A stretch of 35,279 nt of DNA from a virus, in the IMG/VR virus record IMGVR_UViG_3300031841_003125, positions 1-35,279 of that record; one strand, given 5' to 3'. The notes below the pieces were generated by a model. That model saw only the letters and a program-made list of their open reading frames with translations, ran no database searches and was not told the DNA's origin. Numbering within the stretch: the first letter of the stretch is position 1; each line of letters begins with the position of its first letter. Shown piece after piece: positions 11,995 to 33,187 of this stretch. A program made the translations under genes and the position numbers.

Positions 11995-12426
11995 ATGGCT
12001 CAAGGCGATTTTGTATTATTTGAAGAGTTTAGAAAAGAGATTGCTGATGGCACTTTCGATCTAGATACTGACACATGGGCGGCTAAGCTTATAACTACGC
12101 TACCTACCGCAGCTCAAGCTACCCCAGTGCTGGCTGATTTCACAGAGGTGTCCGCTGGTGGCGGATATACGACTGGCGGAATCGCTTTAACTCAATCGTG
12201 GACTGAGGCGGCTGGGGTGGCAACATTCGACTTTACAACCAACCCTAGCTGGACTGCTGGCGCATCTAGCCCAACCAATATTGTGTCCGCTTTGATCGTA
12301 AATGGCACCGATAATGCTATCGGGTACGTTGATTTAACCACGGATGGCGGCACAACTCCGGTAAGCTTGGTTGATGGTAACATCACTATCACTTGGAACG
12401 CGTCTGGCGTATTTACTCTAACGTAA
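11995..12426 (+). CDS. Probable virion structural protein, 143 aa
   Basis: AAAAAGAGGAATGAAAA ribosome-binding region before the ATG. Starts AQGDFVLFEEFRKEIADGTF, then TDTWAAKLITTLPTAA and an Ala/Gly/Thr-rich beta region (EVSAGGGYTTGGIAL), ending ITWNASGVFTLT. The pattern (helical start, W..K.., VSAGGGY..GG, terminal ITWN..GV..L) is typical of a phage protein family found near capsid and tail-fibre genes. Its function there is uncertain (decoration or fibre accessory). Confidence 0.6.
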   Translation: MAQGDFVLFEEFRKEIADGTFDLDTDTWAAKLITTLPTAAQATPVLADFTEVSAGGGYTTGGIALTQSWTEAAGVATFDFTTNPSWTAGASSPTNIVSALIVNGTDNAIGYVDLTTDGGTTPVSLVDGNITITWNASGVFTLT

Positions 12427-12430
12427 AATT

Positions 12431-14806
12431 ATGCCTTTTATAAGTGGAGCGATAACCGCATCTGGGGGCAGTTATACACCAGCAAGCGGAACGGATACCA
12501 TGTTGGTGGTTGTCAGCGGATCTACCGGTTCCGGATTATCCACTGCTAGCAGTCAAGATTTTGGCGGTTCGCCAATGTCTGAGGTCAATAACAGTGAGTT
12601 TTCTATAGACTTGACTGGTTCTGGCGACCCTGCCATAAGCTCGTCATACCTTATAAATCCAGGAACTACATCTCAAGCATTTACGCTGTCATGGACTGGC
12701 ACTAGATTTACTCAGAACAATTATGCTTTCACAGTTAGCGGCGTTAATAGTGTAACCGGCGAAAGTGGGTCGACTTATACCAGCTCAACAAATCCAAGCC
12801 TAACCTATAGCGCCGAAAATGGTGATACTGTTGTCTATGTGCGCCATCACGCCAGAGGTGGCGGAGCTATCTCTTGGACTTCTGACCCTACTGGGTTTAC
12901 GCGACAAGAGAGCATAAATTTAGTAACCAGCCCAGCCAGAAGAACTTTTGCAATATGGACTAGAGACGTCACTTCCACATTGACAAATGAAACAGCTCAG
13001 GCTGTAGAGTCAGCTGCAGGCGATGGCGATCATGGTATTTTTGTTATAAAAGCTGCGTCGCCTGACGTAAACGCAGAGCCAAACCTTCAAACGCTATCAA
13101 TAACATCATTTAAGCCTTTCGTACTAGCGTCTAATATTGCATCTTTAATTAATACGATAAACAATTATTCGGCGGTGGGCAGCGTTGCCAGCTTTGCTGG
13201 TGGCGGCACTAATACATCAGATGCAACCTATAGAGATGAAACTGGCGAACTTATAACAATAAGAAACGGCAGCGCCTCGGCAGATGTTTACGACTTAGGC
13301 GTTTATGGAACTGTTAAAAAAACCATCAGCCTTACCTTTGACGGATCGGATTGTGAAGGCATATGCGACATGGGTTTGGGGGAGTTTGCCACATGTTCAG
13401 AAGATGGGGGAAGGTATCAATTCAATATCTATGACTGGCCTAGCGATGTTGGAACTGCCGCAACATCCAAACAAGAGTTTACAATCGCGCCGAATGGCAC
13501 GGATAACAATTCAGGCGCAGAAGGTATTTGTTACGATAGAAAAAACAAGATATTTTACATCGTTGGAGAGGGTGAGCAGACAAGTACTAGTCGAAGGTTT
13601 TTCAAGGTATTGCGTCCAGGCGTTAATGGAAGGTTTGGCGATACTTCGACATCTTACGCATACAATGATGCAGATGATGGTGATGGCTGGTCTTTAGATG
13701 ATTATATTTCAGAGCCTTTTGATCCAGAGGTGGCCTTTTCATCATATGGTGCATCAGGTGCTACGTTTGATTTATCCAGTATTGATTTTGACCACGCATC
13801 AGACAACGTTGTAATAACCTCAGATACCGGCCAAGAGGTTTTGCAAGTTGATCCGTCTGATGGCACCGTTATAGCCGACTTATCAGTCACATCACTAAGC
13901 CAGATGGAGGGTGTTGCAATACTTCCTAGCGGCGATATGATGCTAATGGGTGAGGCTGATGAATACATAATTTATGAGGCGGCTATAGCTATATCTGCAT
14001 CGTTTGTTCCAATATCAATAGCTATCTTTAATCCAGCCGTAGAGATTAGTTCGCCTCTGAATGTTGATGCAACATCAGAATCGCTATCTATCGCAGCGCT
14101 GAACCCAGCGGTCGAGGTCTTAGTCGACTTAGCTGTAGCCGCATCATTGGTTGCTGTCGCGATAACCCCGATAAACCCAAACGCAGAAGTTTTAACAAAC
14201 ACAAATATTAATAGCCCAACCCAAGCGCTATCAATCCAAGCATTTAATCCATCAGTTGACGTGTTAACCAATCTTGCTGTTGAAGCGACTGTTGAATCCC
14301 TAGCGATATCATTATTTAACCCTTCTGCAGAAGCGCTAATAAATAAAGAAATAACTGCAACAGTTGAAAATTTATCATTGGCGAAATTTAATCCTGATGC
14401 AAATGTAAGCTTGGATTTGTCAGTTACTGCAACGTTGGAAACAATAGATTTAACCGCATTCAATCCATCAGTTTTAGTTGATTTAAATATCACTACAAAT
14501 CTAGTGGCTATGGGCTTAAGCGCAATAAGTCCAGCGTTTTCTCAAGATATAGAGTATAATATAACTGTAACTAGCGGGTCTTTATCGGTATTAAGTTTTG
14601 ATCCAGTTATAACAATTGATAGCGAAGTATCGGTTATTCCAGCGTTAGTGCCAATTGATTTGCTGGTATTTAACCCATCAGTTGGCGTTGGTGCGGTAAA
14701 AATAACATTAACTATAGAATCTAACATTGATAATCGAATAGGCTCAAACATAGAAACTGTTTACAGTTCGAATATAAATACAGCAATTTCAGCTAATCTA
14801 AATTAG
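12431..14806 (+). CDS. Large repeat protein with beta-propeller-like insertion, 791 aa
   Basis: Five bases after the previous stop. Residues 1-212: Ser/Thr/Gly-rich beta domain (GAITASGGSYTPASGTDTML, ARGGGAISWTSD). Residues 215-238: one 24-residue repeat (LQTLSITSFKPFVLASNIA). Residues about 268-516: resembles the SdiA-regulated/esterase-like beta-propeller, seen in GAEGICYDRKNKIFYIVGEG, FDLSSIDFDHASDNVVITSD and QMEGVAILPSGDMMLMGEAD. Residues 523-759: about ten 24-residue repeats of form (Ala)T.E.LSI..FNP.V.V, and a short polar tail. No signal peptide. Position between lysis and packaging genes suggests a virion fibre or decoration protein; a host-surface or enzymatic function for the propeller is an inference. 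Confidence 0.75.
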   Translation: MPFISGAITASGGSYTPASGTDTMLVVVSGSTGSGLSTASSQDFGGSPMSEVNNSEFSIDLTGSGDPAISSSYLINPGTTSQAFTLSWTGTRFTQNNYAFTVSGVNSVTGESGSTYTSSTNPSLTYSAENGDTVVYVRHHARGGGAISWTSDPTGFTRQESINLVTSPARRTFAIWTRDVTSTLTNETAQAVESAAGDGDHGIFVIKAASPDVNAEPNLQTLSITSFKPFVLASNIASLINTINNYSAVGSVASFAGGGTNTSDATYRDETGELITIRNGSASADVYDLGVYGTVKKTISLTFDGSDCEGICDMGLGEFATCSEDGGRYQFNIYDWPSDVGTAATSKQEFTIAPNGTDNNSGAEGICYDRKNKIFYIVGEGEQTSTSRRFFKVLRPGVNGRFGDTSTSYAYNDADDGDGWSLDDYISEPFDPEVAFSSYGASGATFDLSSIDFDHASDNVVITSDTGQEVLQVDPSDGTVIADLSVTSLSQMEGVAILPSGDMMLMGEADEYIIYEAAIAISASFVPISIAIFNPAVEISSPLNVDATSESLSIAALNPAVEVLVDLAVAASLVAVAITPINPNAEVLTNTNINSPTQALSIQAFNPSVDVLTNLAVEATVESLAISLFNPSAEALINKEITATVENLSLAKFNPDANVSLDLSVTATLETIDLTAFNPSVLVDLNITTNLVAMGLSAISPAFSQDIEYNITVTSGSLSVLSFDPVITIDSEVSVIPALVPIDLLVFNPSVGVGAVKITLTIESNIDNRIGSNIETVYSSNINTAISANLN
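13997..14707 (+). repeat. Tandem 72-bp coding repeats (24-residue units)
   Basis: About ten degenerate units, each with a hydrophobic stretch ending in (F/L/I)NP and a V/D/N-rich turn, for example LSIAALNPAVEVLVDL, LSIQAFNPSVDVLTNL and LAISLFNPSAEALINK. Conserved at protein level but diverged in DNA, so it is an old repeat. An eleventh unit lies apart at 13073-13144. Confidence 0.8.
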
Positions 14807-15276: not shown

Positions 15277-15669
15277 GTGGATAAAGTTGGAAGGCCGCCG
15301 GCATTTAAAAACGCCGAAGAGCTGCAAGATAAAATTAATGAATACATACAGAGCCCGCCAACGAGAAGTGTAAAGCTTAAAGATGGGACAGAGTTTGATG
15401 TCAGCGATATTACCATATCAGGGCTTTGCTGGACGCTTGGATTTGAGTCAAGGCAATCATTTTATGACTATGAAAAAAAGCCTGAGTTTACTTACACAAT
15501 AAAAAGAGCAAGGCTATATATCGAGTCTCAGTATGAAAGCTGCCTCAAGTCAAACAGCTGTACAGGTTCGATTTTCGCATTAAAGAGCATGGGTTGGGAT
15601 GATGGATCTGGTCAGGATAAACCCTTGTCGTCTTACACTATAGAAATAGTCAACCCTAATGCAGATTAA
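15277..15669 (+). CDS. terS: Terminase small subunit
   Basis: GTG start after CGGGGCGTGAT. 130 residues. VGRPPAFKNAEELQDKINEY begins as in P22-gp3-type/phage DNA-packaging proteins; ISGLCWTLGFESRQSFYDYE is the DNA-binding HTH, and GSIFALKSMGWDD is the signature near the oligomerisation region. It recognises the packaging site and recruits the large subunit. Its last ten bases overlap the start of that gene. Confidence 0.85.
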   Translation: MDKVGRPPAFKNAEELQDKINEYIQSPPTRSVKLKDGTEFDVSDITISGLCWTLGFESRQSFYDYEKKPEFTYTIKRARLYIESQYESCLKSNSCTGSIFALKSMGWDDGSGQDKPLSSYTIEIVNPNAD

Positions 15670-16906
15670 GCCAACAAAGCCCCAATTTGACTATATAACG
15701 TCTAACGATTTATTTCCCGCTATGGTTGCTGGTTTTGGGGCTGGCAAAACAGAAGCGGCTATAAAGCGTGCAATTATAGGTAAGCTCCAATATCCAACTT
15801 TAAACCGTGGATTTTACGAACCTACCTACGACCTTGTTAGAATGATTGCCTTCCCAAGATTCGAAGAAGCTTTGAGCGAACTAAATATTCCTTACAAGCT
15901 TTATAAATCACCATTGAACTATATTGAAATAGAAAATGCTGGAAAAATATTCTTTCGCTCGATGGATACACCTAGCAGGATTATAGGCTATGAACATGCT
16001 GATGCTGATGTTGATGAGCTGGACACATTAAAAATAAATGACGCGGAGGATGTATGGAGGCGCATCCAATCAAGGAATAGACAATTCAAGCCGGACGGTA
16101 TGCCAAACACAATAGGTGTAACAACAACCCCAGAGGGCTTTAAATTTGTTTACAAAGCGTGGAAAAAATCACCTAAAGAGGGCTATAAAATAATACAAGC
16201 GCCAACCGCATCAAATCCTCACTTGCCGAATGGGTATATAAAATCAATGAGGGACACGTATCCAGAGCAGTTAATAGAAGCTTATTTGATGGGTGAGTTT
16301 GTCAATTTAACTAGTGGGACAATTTACAGCTCATTTAACAGAAAATATAACAATACAAACAGAGTTTGGGATGGGAAGGAGCCTGTTTATATAGGTATGG
16401 ATTTTAACGTTGGAAAAATGGCCGCGGTTATACATGTTAAGGATAAAGGTAGGCCGGTTGCTATTGATGAAATCTCGAACGGTTACGACACGCCTGACGT
16501 AATAAAAACAATAAAATCAAGGTATGATGGGGTGTCAATTATTGTTTATCCGGACGCTAGTGGAGGAAGTCGAAAGTCTATCAACGCAAGTAAGACTGAT
16601 ATTGCTATTCTTGAAGAGGCTGGTTTTAGGGTTGCCGCAAATTCAAAGAATCCATTTGTAAAAGAGCGCATATTGGCAATGAATCGCGCATTTTGCGATA
16701 ATGATGGAAATAGAGATTATTTGGTTAATATAGATAAATGCCCTAATTATGCGGATTGTTTAGAGCAGCAAGTATGGGCTGATAATGGCGAGCCAGATAA
16801 GACGCAAAATAACGATCATATGAACGATGCTGGGGGCTACTTCATTGCTTACGATTATCCTGTAATTAAACCAGCTTCAAGTATAGAGGTTAACTTTAGA
16901 ATATGA
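15659..16906 (+). CDS. terL: Terminase large subunit
   Basis: 415 residues. Walker A AGFGAGKT at residues 24-31; Walker B region ADADVDELDTL with Asp119-Glu120; the coupling motif follows near TTTPEG (residues about 160-165). The nuclease domain starts with VYIGMDFNVGKMAAVIHV (catalytic Asp about residue 246), continues with VYPDASGG (about 295) and ends with NDHMNDAGGY (about 384). This is the standard motor-plus-RNase-H-nuclease order that packages DNA through the portal. Slightly shorter than usual. Overlaps both neighbours. Confidence 0.95.
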   Translation: MQIKPTKPQFDYITSNDLFPAMVAGFGAGKTEAAIKRAIIGKLQYPTLNRGFYEPTYDLVRMIAFPRFEEALSELNIPYKLYKSPLNYIEIENAGKIFFRSMDTPSRIIGYEHADADVDELDTLKINDAEDVWRRIQSRNRQFKPDGMPNTIGVTTTPEGFKFVYKAWKKSPKEGYKIIQAPTASNPHLPNGYIKSMRDTYPEQLIEAYLMGEFVNLTSGTIYSSFNRKYNNTNRVWDGKEPVYIGMDFNVGKMAAVIHVKDKGRPVAIDEISNGYDTPDVIKTIKSRYDGVSIIVYPDASGGSRKSINASKTDIAILEEAGFRVAANSKNPFVKERILAMNRAFCDNDGNRDYLVNIDKCPNYADCLEQQVWADNGEPDKTQNNDHMNDAGGYFIAYDYPVIKPASSIEVNFRI

Positions 16907-27418: not shown

Positions 27419-28182
27419 TGAGTAATGTTTTTGTAGTATCAGCATCAACAAACGACCTAGATAAAGAGCCAAGACTAGCCTATCAAAGCTATGTTTCTGG
27501 AGCTACGATTGTGGCTAGCCATGATCAATCGAATGTCGCTTATATATATGACGGAATGACAACTATGAAGTGGAGGCCAGCGGTAAATACATCAAGTATC
27601 ACATTGAGCGGATCCTTTAATGGGACGGATTACGTTGCTATCGCTGGCGCTAATTTTAAATCATCCGGCTGTCAAGTTGAAATAAAAGACTCAGGCGGCA
27701 ACAGTCTCGGTATTGCTAACGGGTTAAGAGATAATCAACCGGTTTATTTTGTGTTTGAAAGGACTTTTTATAGTCAAATAGTAATTGAGTTTACCTGCTC
27801 AAACTCCACTTTGGAAGTCGGCGAGATTTATATGGGGAGTTCAATGCTGTTTCCTAAAAACGTGTCTGTCGGCTATGTTCCGGCCAGATGGAACACCAAC
27901 AACATTGTTAACACAGGCGTTACTCAATCTAATCAATTTGCTGGATCTGTTGTTAGAGCTAGAGGATCAACCGAACAGTTCAGCATAAGCAAGATGGATG
28001 TGTCTTTTTTAGATGGTGCTTACGAAAGTTTTTTAAGGGCCGCTGAGGGTGTGCCTGTTTTCTTTTTGTGGAGTAAAGATAATTTCGCTGACTGCGTTTT
28101 TGGTAATTGGAAGTCAAATAAACCAGCTTACGAGTCCGCATATCAAAGTTCTATTACGCTGACCATTGAGGGCGCCTCGTGA
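27418..28182 (+). CDS. Distal tail (tail tip) protein candidate
   Basis: 254 residues; ATG overlaps the tape measure stop. N-terminal part (residues 20-140) resembles a beta-sandwich carbohydrate-binding domain (SITLSGSFNGTDYVAIAG, QPVYFVFERTFYSQIVIEF). C-terminal part (NVSVGYVPARWNTNNIV, VRARGSTEQFSISKMDVSF, NWKSNKPAYESAYQSSITL) resembles tail-tip base domains. It probably forms the ring linking tube and hub. No signature allows a firm name. Confidence 0.65.
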   Translation: MSNVFVVSASTNDLDKEPRLAYQSYVSGATIVASHDQSNVAYIYDGMTTMKWRPAVNTSSITLSGSFNGTDYVAIAGANFKSSGCQVEIKDSGGNSLGIANGLRDNQPVYFVFERTFYSQIVIEFTCSNSTLEVGEIYMGSSMLFPKNVSVGYVPARWNTNNIVNTGVTQSNQFAGSVVRARGSTEQFSISKMDVSFLDGAYESFLRAAEGVPVFFLWSKDNFADCVFGNWKSNKPAYESAYQSSITLTIEGAS

Positions 28183-30479
28183 GTTTTAATGATTTAAAGG
28201 CTGTTGGTCATAGAAAGGCGTTCACAATGGTGAGACTTTACCTTGACCAGAACGACCCTTCCTTATCTGCTGAGCTATCTTTAGAGCCTGATAGCTGCGA
28301 CACACCAAAAACTACTGATGACATAAGAGCTTATACCGGTGTTGATTTTAAGGTTTACCAGTATGCAGATCAAAATATTGTTGGGGTTGATCATTTTCCG
28401 CAACTTGCTAGCGTGCAAACCTCTCCCCCAAAAATTGAGCCTGGTAAATCGATAGGATTTAGAGCAACCGCAAAAGTCAACCTGTTTGACTTTATCAGTA
28501 CCGACGCCTTTGAGTTGCAAGGTGATTACTCTGACAGAAGAGTGACCGGAAGCCACTTTCAAAAATTAAAAGCGAGAAATTATCTGATTAACCGTAAAGC
28601 TGAGATTGTTAGAGGATTTAACCCCGACAACTACAGCTCAGCTAATACGCAAGTAGAAACCTATGTGATAGACTCAATCAGCGATCCAGCGCCAGATGGG
28701 TCGGTTACATTAAACTTAGTAGATCATTTAATTTTGGTCGAAGATAAGCAAGCTAAAGCTCCGACAGTCAGCAGAGGTGTGCTAACCGCGACATTTACAA
28801 CATCAGATCCAACATTAAGTTATTCATCAACTATCACCGATGAATACGGAGCTGTTAGTGATACGGTTTTTATTGTTATAGGGAAAGAGTTGATTGAGTG
28901 CACTGTAACATCATCAACCGTGTTAACGGTAGTCAATCGCGCTCAAGGGGGCACGGAGCTAGCAGAGCACGCATCAGGCGAGACTATACAAAAATGTATT
29001 GTTTATGATGACGAGAATATTATAGATATTATTACTGACTTGATTACAAGCCATACAAAAATACCCGCATCATATATTCCGACGGCCGACTGGGCAAGCT
29101 TGAAAGCTAATGAGTTAAGCGCTTTTAACTTGTCCAGAACAATTCACAAACCAACAGACGTTAAAAAGCTTCTAACTGAGCTCATTGTTTTAGCGGGCCT
29201 TTCTATGTACGTTGATGTTATTAATAATGAACTCGTAATTGTTCCAACGCCAGATTTTGCCACGCCTGTGATAACATTTGATGAAGATGAGCATTTAATG
29301 ATGGATTCGGTGTCTGTTAGAGATGATAAAAAGAGCAAAATAACAAGACAGTCTTTGCTTTGGGATAAAGTTTCGGTAACAGAGTCAGACGACGAAAATA
29401 ACTATAGAAAATCATTTCAGGTTATTGATGCAATTGTTGAGCAGGACGCCAACGAGGGCGTTGTGTCTGAGGCCAAAACAGTTAAATCTAACTGGCTAAT
29501 AAACACTACAGAGGATAATTCTTTAGCGACAAACTACTGTCAAAGGCAGGTTAACAGGTTTTCTCAGACCCCAAAACAGGTAAGGTTTAAATTAGACCAA
29601 AGGCACGTTGATCAGCTTGTCTCTGGCGATAGGTTCTGGCTGGGATCGATATTTGATATAAATACATCAAAAATAAAAGATCAGTTACTAAACAACAAAG
29701 TAACTACCTGCCAATGTATACAAATAAACCCGACAAACGACGACAAATGGCAGGTTACAGGGCTGTCTTATATTGCAGCGTCTCCACCTGTAGCCGATTT
29801 ATATATCAATGAAGATCAAGAAGATTACGTACTATCTGATCATTTAACAACAACAGAAGCTATAGAATACGTTGTGGTGGTTGGTGCAGGTGTTATCATT
29901 TCAGCATCATCAACATCCGCAAAAGCATTTACTACAGGCAGTTTGTTTGCAGGTGCTACCATTAAAATAATTAACTTGGGGTTTATAGTTGGCGCTGGCG
30001 GTAAGGGTGGTAGCGGTGCGCTTGAAGAATACGACGCAGAATCCGATTCGTGCCTAACACATTCCTTAGCTAATGGATCTGATGGCGGCGACGCACTAAA
30101 TTTAACAGTCGACACAACTCTTGACAATGGATTCGGATTCATAGGTGGCGGAGGTGGCGGCGGTGTTGGCACTTTCGGATCTTGCGATCAACCTTCCGGC
30201 GTAGCTGTTGGTGGTGATGGTGGCGGTGGTGGTCAGGGGCTTGCAGGTGGTGCAGGCGGTAACGCTGGAACGGGCTTACCTGGGCCGGTTCTTGGGAATA
30301 TTGGCATTGCTGGCACTTTTGCCACTAAGGGTGGTAACGGAGGCGAGTTTGGCGAGAATGGCCAAGACTTCTCTGGAGCTACAGGCGGCGCTGCTGGAGA
30401 TGCAATTGTCACTAACGGCAATACGGTAACAATACTATCAGGTAACAACTCAGAACAAATTAAAGGAGCCGTAAACTAA
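28179..30479 (+). CDS. Tail hub/tip protein with glycine-rich C-terminal domain
   Basis: 766 residues, GTG overlapping the previous stop (GTGA). Residues 1-550 (KAVGHRKAFTMVRLYLDQ, LINRKAEIVRGFNPDNY, PTDVKKLLTELIVLAGLSMY, VRFKLDQRHVDQLVSGDRFW) follow the phage hub/tail-tip family. A block near residues 230-270 includes IVIGKELIECTV and AQGGTELAEHASGE. Residues about 602-737 are extremely Gly-rich (FGFIGGGGGGGVGT, GDGGGGGQGLAGGAGG), a form found at the tips of phage adhesins where it folds into polyglycine helices. The tip may contact the host receptor. It then runs into the fibre gene with an ATG overlap. Confidence 0.8.
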   Translation: MSFNDLKAVGHRKAFTMVRLYLDQNDPSLSAELSLEPDSCDTPKTTDDIRAYTGVDFKVYQYADQNIVGVDHFPQLASVQTSPPKIEPGKSIGFRATAKVNLFDFISTDAFELQGDYSDRRVTGSHFQKLKARNYLINRKAEIVRGFNPDNYSSANTQVETYVIDSISDPAPDGSVTLNLVDHLILVEDKQAKAPTVSRGVLTATFTTSDPTLSYSSTITDEYGAVSDTVFIVIGKELIECTVTSSTVLTVVNRAQGGTELAEHASGETIQKCIVYDDENIIDIITDLITSHTKIPASYIPTADWASLKANELSAFNLSRTIHKPTDVKKLLTELIVLAGLSMYVDVINNELVIVPTPDFATPVITFDEDEHLMMDSVSVRDDKKSKITRQSLLWDKVSVTESDDENNYRKSFQVIDAIVEQDANEGVVSEAKTVKSNWLINTTEDNSLATNYCQRQVNRFSQTPKQVRFKLDQRHVDQLVSGDRFWLGSIFDINTSKIKDQLLNNKVTTCQCIQINPTNDDKWQVTGLSYIAASPPVADLYINEDQEDYVLSDHLTTTEAIEYVVVVGAGVIISASSTSAKAFTTGSLFAGATIKIINLGFIVGAGGKGGSGALEEYDAESDSCLTHSLANGSDGGDALNLTVDTTLDNGFGFIGGGGGGGVGTFGSCDQPSGVAVGGDGGGGGQGLAGGAGGNAGTGLPGPVLGNIGIAGTFATKGGNGGEFGENGQDFSGATGGAAGDAIVTNGNTVTILSGNNSEQIKGAVN

Positions 30480-32149
30480 TGGCATTACCTTATTATTCAT
30501 TTACAGCGATTCTCAACACAGACCCAGACGGCGATAATATAATCGCAGGACAGGCCGTATCTGTTAATATCAAAGGTGGCGGGCTGGCGTCGATATACTC
30601 AGATGATGCAGGGACAACACCAATAGCGCAACCAGGTGCGGTCACGGATTCTAATGGGGTTCTAGAATTTTATGCAAATTCTGGTAATTATTTGATAACA
30701 AGCGGGTCGAGAACCGAGGAAATTCAACTTACTAACTCAGGCGAAAGCTTTAAAAACGTAACGCTTGCAGAAATGAAAGCCTGGAGCGCTCCTAGCGTGG
30801 GCGACGCGTTTATTGTGTCAGACAGAGCTAACGGCATATTTGACACGGTAACGGTCGGAACTACTTCCAATGTAGACCTACCCAACGGCCAGAATATTAT
30901 TGTATCAATAGCCGACCCTACCAAGTGTTTTGTGTTGAGAGAGGATGCGCTTCCGAGCGTTGCTCAGTGGGGTTCATTTGGTGGAGTAACCGACGAAACG
31001 GCTATTTGGCAGGCGATTATAGATATAGGTGTCAGACATGCAGTAGTGCCATACAATGCGACCGGCTACACAATCAACACACTTACAAACTCGTCAAATA
31101 CGACTTTTGTATTTCAAGGTAGTAGCCCGATGCTAGGAACTCAAACCCTTGAAAGTTTGGGTCTTGTTCTTGATAGTGGATATATTGGCGGTGCTGCAAT
31201 AGCTGACGATTTAAGAGATGGAAAGATTGAGATTGTATCTGGGACTATACGTCAAGAGCAGCCTACATCCGTGGCAGGCATTACAAGAAGCGGGACATCT
31301 GGGATTGTAAATGAAGTGGCTCACGGTCGCGTTGCTGGCGATTGGATTGTAATACAGGGAGCGTCCCCGACAGGGTATAACGGAACGCATGAAATAGCAC
31401 AAGTTGATGATGTTGACACATATAGAGTGGTTGTTGATTCTGGCTTAACAACGCCAGCAACTGGCACAATAACGGTTTTTGGTGCCGATGTTTGGGAGTG
31501 GATAAAAGACGGCACACACGAGCCGCTAGGTGTGGACGATTCAACGCCAGTAAGATCCGATGCTGGAGGTTATGGATTGCTCATACCATTCACAAAAACC
31601 TATTCAAAAGTATTAACAATGATGGTTGGCCCAGACGAAACAATAGCAGGCGCACAAGCTATGGTCATAGGGTCATCAGTGTCTACCAGCGCAATAGCGC
31701 TTAGAGCATCGATAAATAAGACGGTTGCAGGGCGTGTTCTATATGATGGTGCAAACTGGGCTGTTAATATGGGTACAGATCAAGGCTCTATATACACAAC
31801 TGATGCGCCTTACCCATTTGACGATATAGCATATAGCGGCGGGAACTTAACACTTAATCACTCTTTTTGTCTTGGTAGCGATATTAGATTAACGCCAAGC
31901 TCAGCAGGGGGCACTACAACTCCATATATACCCGTATTAAAATCAAATACCGACAATGAAACTGTTGTCAACTTTATGTATGTTAATGCTGGGGCTTTGG
32001 CGCTATACACCGGAGCCGAAACAACAAACATGGCGTTTCATTACACAAAAAACTCAAACAGGTTGATAAAATTCGACGGCTCAGACAGGTCGAGCGAAAC
32101 CAAGATGTACTTTGGTAACATTTGGTTTTTCGGAATAATGCAAGTTTAA
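30479..32149 (+). CDS. Tail fibre/spike protein
   Basis: 556 residues, start ALPYYSFTAILNTDPDGDN, then IYSDDAGTTPIAQPGAVTDSN, GVLEFYANSGNYLI: the N-terminal attachment domain of tail fibres. VAQWGSFGGVTDETAIWQAI with VVPYNATGYTINTLTNSSN looks like the first turn of a pectate-lyase-type beta-helix, but the helix body is short. Residues 254-334 hold a domain (VAGDWIVIQGASPTGYNG, ATGTITVF) shared with coat and tail tube proteins. Whether the spike is an enzyme is unknown. Confidence 0.75.
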   Translation: MALPYYSFTAILNTDPDGDNIIAGQAVSVNIKGGGLASIYSDDAGTTPIAQPGAVTDSNGVLEFYANSGNYLITSGSRTEEIQLTNSGESFKNVTLAEMKAWSAPSVGDAFIVSDRANGIFDTVTVGTTSNVDLPNGQNIIVSIADPTKCFVLREDALPSVAQWGSFGGVTDETAIWQAIIDIGVRHAVVPYNATGYTINTLTNSSNTTFVFQGSSPMLGTQTLESLGLVLDSGYIGGAAIADDLRDGKIEIVSGTIRQEQPTSVAGITRSGTSGIVNEVAHGRVAGDWIVIQGASPTGYNGTHEIAQVDDVDTYRVVVDSGLTTPATGTITVFGADVWEWIKDGTHEPLGVDDSTPVRSDAGGYGLLIPFTKTYSKVLTMMVGPDETIAGAQAMVIGSSVSTSAIALRASINKTVAGRVLYDGANWAVNMGTDQGSIYTTDAPYPFDDIAYSGGNLTLNHSFCLGSDIRLTPSSAGGTTTPYIPVLKSNTDNETVVNFMYVNAGALALYTGAETTNMAFHYTKNSNRLIKFDGSDRSSETKMYFGNIWFFGIMQV

Positions 32150-32155
32150 TACAGA

Positions 32156-33187
32156 ATGATTAACGTGAAAAAGATACAGATCTCAATCTTATTATTGCTA
32201 ACTTCAATGCAAACGTTATGTGAAAACCAAATTCACCTAGGTATGTTTTCAACTCATTTTGAGGATGGTAGCTATAATGAAGTGCACAACCTAATCGGAT
32301 TAGAATTTGATAGCTTCTTCTTGCATCGATTTAAAAATTCGAACGGAGAGACTAATTATTTTTTAGGAAAAATAAAAAGAGATGGAGTTTGCATTGATAA
32401 ATTATGCCTTGGTTATAGCTATGGAATTATGAAAGGCTACGAATTTGAGGAGTATTTACCAGCAATATTCGGCGTAATTTCTTACGAAAGAGATAGCGCC
32501 GGTTTTGATATATCATGTTTTCCAAGTATTGTTTGCGCTATTCAATTTAGATTTTCTGATGAAGCTTTCAAGGCTTTAGATTTAATACCTATCTGGGATG
32601 CTAAAGGCTATTTAGAGGTGGCTTTAGATCACTATGATTCTGACGACCCAAGCAGATACGGATACCACAGAAACAACGGAGCAGACTATCAGCTAAAATT
32701 ATACCTAAAAGATAAAACCTATCTAAAGTGGGGCTACACATCGACAGATGCGACCATAAAAGCCGATCAAAGTAATAACAAATTCCCCTCAGGTTGGAAA
32801 ACCAAAGACCCTAGCACTATACTATCAAAAGGTTATTTTATGGCTGGCCATGATTTTGATTCATTTTCTCTAGGCGTTTCGTACAACCAAGTATCGATTC
32901 AAGAGAACGTGCTAGATATCAATCAAGATAGCTTTCCTTTATCAGAGCTTCCAAAAACAACCCACAACGGCTATGGGGTTCATGCAAGCAAGAACTTCAA
33001 ACTATCCGACAACACAAACGCATACCTCGAATTAGCTGTAATAGACACGCTAATAACCGATAGCCGCATAACAGCAGAGCTAAGGCATAATATCACCGAT
33101 AGCTTAGAGGTCACATTAAGAACTATAGATTATGAGAAATGGAACAGCTCGCACTACCAGCTAGGAATAAGATATCGTTTTAATTAG
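32156..33187 (+). CDS. Outer-membrane beta-barrel protein carried by the phage
   Basis: 343 residues. Signal peptide ISILLLLTSMQTLC (residues 9-22), then alternating strands. The first 120 residues (IHLGMFSTHFEDGSYNEV, LIGLEFDSFFLHRFKNSNG, LGYSYGIMKGYEFEEYLP) look like the small phage/PagP-type barrels, and residues 145-343 (YLEVALDHYDSDDPSR, YGVHASKNFKLSDNTNAYL, RITAELRHNITDSLEVTLR) look like a second barrel ending YQLGIRYRFN (Phe next to last). It is probably exported to the outer membrane and may alter receptor access (superinfection exclusion), but this is inference. No promoter of its own seen. Confidence 0.75.
   Translation: MINVKKIQISILLLLTSMQTLCENQIHLGMFSTHFEDGSYNEVHNLIGLEFDSFFLHRFKNSNGETNYFLGKIKRDGVCIDKLCLGYSYGIMKGYEFEEYLPAIFGVISYERDSAGFDISCFPSIVCAIQFRFSDEAFKALDLIPIWDAKGYLEVALDHYDSDDPSRYGYHRNNGADYQLKLYLKDKTYLKWGYTSTDATIKADQSNNKFPSGWKTKDPSTILSKGYFMAGHDFDSFSLGVSYNQVSIQENVLDINQDSFPLSELPKTTHNGYGVHASKNFKLSDNTNAYLELAVIDTLITDSRITAELRHNITDSLEVTLRTIDYEKWNSSHYQLGIRYRFN

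Follow-up and report, generated by a model that had tools for sequence, protein, structure and literature searches.

Beta-propellers are already established in phage proteins that contact the host. In the receptor-binding protein of Staphylococcus phage phi11 (Gp45), a five-bladed propeller lies mid-protein, between N- and C-terminal modules, and is thought to hold N-acetylglucosamine (PMC4901313). The same authors cite PRD1 P2 and PhiKZ gp131C as other propellers in putative receptor-binding proteins; together with the K1F endosialidase these belong to other propeller classes, namely distorted five-bladed, seven-bladed and catalytic endosialidase (PMC4901313). The SdiA-regulated family (PF06977) includes the chromosomal bacterial protein YjiK of E. 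coli, whose structure is solved (3qqz). CarP (PA0327) of Pseudomonas aeruginosa, a Ca2+-regulated beta-propeller protein, is cellular and serves calcium homeostasis, and its homologues are annotated as SdiA-regulated (PMC10574481); through that annotation it may be compared with the domain described here.

In a virus record 35,279 bases long, the whole of which is called the window, we found that one gene encodes a 791-aa protein with a propeller of this family (Table 1). Its fold and family motifs are those of YjiK, from which it differs in sitting between a beta-rich domain and a repeat array and in carrying an acidic insertion in blade 3. With phi11 Gp45 it shares a five-bladed propeller placed between N- and C-terminal modules and a nearness in fold to glutaminyl cyclotransferases. 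Gp45 differs in having a helical stem, a two-domain tower and a solved baseplate trimer, and a search with the full window protein against PDB sequences at E≤10 did not match the phi11 protein, giving no sequence evidence of homology. A full-text search of open-access papers returned no description of a SdiA-regulated domain in a phage structural protein, and no PHROG covers the propeller domain. An exchangeable YjiK-type propeller cassette in phages thus appears to be undescribed in the literature searched, while propellers on phage adhesins are already known. An earlier sequence-only reading of this gene had called the combination unfamiliar in phage virion proteins, which holds for the SdiA-regulated family as searched and not for propellers in general.

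Table 1. Features of the propeller gene and its flanks in the window (L numbers denote related loci)
Feature	Residues	Position	Strand	Basis
phrog_644 family gene, directly 5' of the propeller gene		11995..12426	+	family match
Whole gene, 791 aa, putative modular fibre/adhesin type		12431..14806	+	single open frame; architecture shared with four other viral contigs
N-terminal beta-rich domain	1-210	12431..13060	+	comparison with relatives; AlphaFold
Lone repeat unit of 24 aa, immediately preceding the propeller	211-234	13061..13132	+	21.1 bits; kept in L002, L003 and L008
SdiA-regulated (PF06977) five-bladed propeller, acidic insertion within ~399-447	~246-517	13166..13981	+	Pfam, AlphaFold, Foldseek
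Ten-unit array of ~24-aa beta repeats	517-763	13979..14719	+	lag-24 z=12.7; same class in L004 and L008
C-terminal end	764-791	14720..14803	+	differs from L004, L008 and L005 tips
Terminase small and large subunit genes, 3' of the propeller gene		15277..16906	+	context

A SdiA-regulated propeller between a lone repeat and a repeat array

The middle section of the protein is a true SdiA-regulated domain. It matches PF06977 with E=6.1e-17 and 62.1 bits, about three times the curated cut-off of 21 bits, and propellers among the relatives described below match the family too. Blade-wise motifs aligned to YjiK by hmmsearch and hhalign (D-x-EG...E, N-x-G-x-EG...E, D-x-S...S and Q-x-EGVA...E) contain many residues that are invariant across the phage propeller set, and hhalign of the phage propeller against YjiK gives 96.9% with the family motifs in register. 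We also predicted the structure with AlphaFold, template-free and from only eight sequences. The full-length model is weak (pLDDT 49.5), but it does contain a propeller stretch, with pLDDT mostly 60-85 except in the acidic insertion and the first strand. The 19 strands of the modelled propeller would fit five blades if one blade-3 strand is lost in the low-confidence insertion. When this template-free model was compared with 350,542 solved chains by Foldseek, the best match was YjiK (3qqz; E=1.8e-12, TMt 0.82), far ahead of other propellers, which include glutaminyl cyclases. A profile of the phage propellers, which is independent of the fold search, likewise ranks 3qqz first (E=1.9e-9). Profile, fold and comparison thus agree with the earlier proposal of a SdiA-regulated propeller inside a repeat-bearing protein. 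A single-sequence PDB search with the protein returned chance matches only, and, as the full-length model is poor beyond the propeller, comparison with a viral structure library was uninformative.

Within the propeller lies the acidic stretch NDADDGDGWSLDDY (residues 412-425, window 13664-13705), which is identical in the window and in L002 to L006, has one change in L008 and is absent in L013. To judge from its letters it looks like a metal-binding loop, although the canonical EF-hand pattern is not matched.

The repeats on either side of the propeller are of one kind. A typical array unit is ATVESLAISLFNPSAEAL. Self-similarity of residues 517-765 is highest at a lag of 24 (mean score 1.24; in 500 shuffles no lag scored above 0.15), with a second peak at lag 48 (z=10.6); one of the steps between the ten units is 22 aa. 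By running the array profile over residues 1-515 we recovered one further unit, whose score exceeds the shuffle maximum of 15.1 bits (n=1000), the next-best match outside the array reaching 0.8 bits. The count of one unit before and ten after the propeller, as first read from the sequence, is therefore real, and only the register of the lone unit differs (13061-13132 instead of 13073-13144). A unit stands directly 5' of the propeller in the window, L002, L003 and L008, with a score reached by none of 1000 shuffles. In L004 it fails the gap-free profile test and is recognisable by eye only, with a one-residue insertion. AlphaFold models of the repeats are of low confidence.

A third part of the protein, absent from the earlier description, is the N-terminal domain. 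It is 59-63% identical in L002, L003, L004 and L008 and about 40% identical in the propeller-less proteins of L026, L027 and L028. Its model, also of low confidence, is all-beta with a mean pLDDT of 59, and a fold search of the PDB gave no match at E≤0.001; the head domain of the Tuc2009 baseplate (E=0.12) was set aside. By eye, the N-terminus has no signal-peptide-like stretch. At the other end of the protein, a similar tip (G.G..MYS....Y) closes L004, L008 and L005 after different repeat classes and is missing in the window protein, so that the tip seems to have been exchanged separately.

The propeller recurs in different modular layouts

Nine further metagenomic viral records carry related genes: five were found by the whole protein, two more by the propeller and two more by the N-terminal domain, which also gave a second locus (L028) in the contig of L002. 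We grouped them into four layouts. In layout A (window, L002, L003, L004 and L008) the N-terminal domain is followed by the unit, the propeller and a tail. In L002 the tail repeats belong to another class, with units of 22 aa, and L003 ends soon after the propeller. The recurrence of this layout in four other contigs rules out an assembly artefact. In layout B (L005 and L013) an unrelated N-terminal domain precedes the propeller, and the tail behind it shows a weak period of 18 residues; L006, a fragment, is nearly identical to L005. Profile comparison found no relation between the N-terminal domains of layouts A and B (hhalign probability 0.1%). In layout C (L026 and L028) a stand-alone propeller gene of 376 aa (PF06977, E=1.1e-6) lies beside a 661-aa protein made of the N-terminal domain plus repeats and lacking the propeller, and the propeller stop abuts the partner start (TAG|ATG). 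Layout D, seen in L027, is the N-terminal domain with repeats and no propeller. Across the tails the repeat period is 24, 22, 20 or 18. Comparison of these layouts shows that the propeller is an exchangeable cassette, combined with two unrelated N-terminal domains and with tails of at least three kinds, and also encoded as a gene of its own next to a partner that lacks it.

In the split form the propeller gene is upstream of its partner; the fused protein has the propeller in its middle. This difference in module order rules out simple gene fusion as the origin, since loss of a stop codon cannot interconvert the two forms. Insertion of the propeller beside a repeat unit, or its excision from there, is needed instead, and the movement may have gone in either direction. 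By eye, an 'NM' variant is common to the units before and after the propeller in L002 and L003, even though L002 otherwise has a different repeat in its tail, and this likeness fits insertion beside a repeat unit. The earlier view that the propeller was inserted into a repeat array is thus backed by the lone unit before the propeller in relatives and by the propeller-less proteins of N-terminal domain plus repeats.

L002 and L028 lie in one 74-kb contig (IMGVR_UViG_3300032087_003094), which therefore holds the fused and split forms together; the assembly may have joined two phages, or the duplication may be real.

We also searched 50,697 phage records by tblastn and found no relatives of the whole protein, the L027 N-terminal domain, the L013 propeller or the stand-alone propeller, the weak best matches being rejected. 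The L004 repeat array as query found its own contig only, and scanning bacterial genomes for patterns of the propeller and of the N-terminal domain gave no match. YjiK as query matches four 'phage' records: two carry the names of Salmonella enterica strains and are about 501 kb long, one is a 1.5-kb fragment and one is an UNVERIFIED record of Pseudomonas phage Y10. We do not accept these as evidence of PF06977 in isolated phages. The Y10 record (L034, unannotated) has a YjiK-like gene 34% identical to YjiK, where host contamination is possible.

Genomic neighbourhoods and proposed function

The late region of the window is of siphophage type, with terminase small and large subunits, portal, head morphogenesis, scaffold, major head protein, tail tube, tape measure and two tail-fibre genes. 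Other carriers differ in their packaging and structural genes: the window has a Terminase_6 with a long tail, L002 a Terminase_3, L013 a P22-like portal, L004 a T7-type internal virion protein and L027 an SU10-like adaptor. A phrog_644-type gene lies directly 5' of all five layout A genes (by family match in the window and L004, and recognised by sequence in L002, L003 and L008), and LamG lectin genes are close to the L005 and L027 genes.

We propose that the gene product is a virion adhesin whose propeller forms a ligand-binding head between an anchor and a repeat stalk, a reading with an even chance of being correct. It would be a phage surface adhesin assembled from exchangeable modules, which the N-terminal beta domain would attach to the virion. 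The YjiK-type propeller, between the single unit and the long array, would have its ligand or metal site on the central face. The host-surface molecule to which it binds would probably be a glycan or a phosphorylated envelope component, and the array of short two-stranded repeats may form an extended beta stalk that sets distance. This model draws on the repeat-bearing, modular architecture, the position of the L004 gene near an internal virion protein, the LamG neighbours, the link of phrog_644 to minor tail genes and the N-terminus without a signal-peptide-like stretch. Whole protein and parts gave no meaningful score against PHROG, and no known tail-fibre or receptor-binding family was matched. 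Of the sequence-only reading's description of the protein as virion-type, the part that stands is what gene position, its sole support, can bear.

That position can be read in more than one way. On one side the gene is flanked by a spanin gene and the phrog_644 gene, on the other by the terminase genes; it lies apart from the recognised tail-fibre genes at 28179-32149, so its product could be on the head or outside the virion. It may decorate the head as a capsid-projecting fibre that binds loosely to surfaces or polymers, instead of being a receptor-binding protein of the tail; we consider this unlikely, although in the window, L002 and L013 the propeller gene is closely upstream of the terminase small subunit and away from tail genes, and the window has separate genes for a tail fibre and a GP38-like adhesin. 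T7-like phages usually place fibre genes in the region after the internal virion protein, and in the T7-like L004 the propeller gene is the fourth after that gene. Moreover, the homologue of the phrog_644 neighbour in mycobacteriophage Zapner comes after three annotated minor tail protein genes, and no known head-fibre domain was found.

The propeller could instead have an enzymatic activity of phytase, lactonase or cyclase type and break down a polymer of the host surface or a small molecule. Many similarly shaped propellers are catalytic, glutaminyl cyclases are among the fold matches, conserved acidic residues recur in each blade and L004 has a weak Phytase-like match. The last, to PF13449, is below threshold (21.8 against a cut-off of 27.6 bits) and confined to that one relative, Pfam gave no hydrolase-family match in the window protein, and we found no established enzyme activity for PF06977. 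The phi11 receptor-binding protein likewise resembles glutamine cyclotransferase, yet its authors assign it to receptor binding (PMC4901313). We therefore regard an enzymatic role as decidedly improbable, and the earlier suggestion of surface-polymer degradation, whose sole link to a hydrolase is the L004 match, found no positive evidence. By analogy with the phi11 propeller, host-surface binding is favoured here, and receptor binding by the propeller is plausible and our best guess. As CarP homologues are annotated SdiA-regulated, a divalent metal site in the propeller would also be reasonable.

A late-expressed, non-virion protein that works inside the host cell or on its surface, in lysis, superinfection exclusion or divalent metal ion binding, would fit the nearby spanin gene and bacterial relatives of the propeller class such as Ca2+-regulated CarP (PMC10574481), but is very improbable given an N-terminus without a signal-peptide-like stretch and a repeat-tail architecture and lectin-bearing neighbourhoods typical of virion adhesins.

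More tentatively, and as a possibility that we hold to be somewhat doubtful, the YjiK-type propeller may be a mobile host-recognition cassette of environmental phages, crossing unrelated lineages and alternating between a fused form, with the propeller inserted next to a repeat unit, and a form split over two genes, the products of which would assemble on the virion. The toolkit of phage surface proteins gains a class of propeller whose bacterial relative has a solved structure, and the propeller-less and split-gene relatives are natural comparisons for the role of the propeller in adsorption. The layouts also show a possible route by which phages may acquire host-recognition domains, through insertion beside a stalk repeat.

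The tail-fibre region of the window (28179-32149) encodes a 766-aa protein whose C-terminus is of the GP38 adhesin type, and a fibre of 556 aa that shares a stretch (DPTKCFVLRE and sequence upstream of it) with the L005 gene at 1077-2819. Directly 3' of these genes, a 343-aa protein with a signal-like N-terminal stretch (32156-33187) matches PHROG 3600 (PagP-like lipid A acylation, moron class; E=1e-14) and is possibly an outer-membrane moron.
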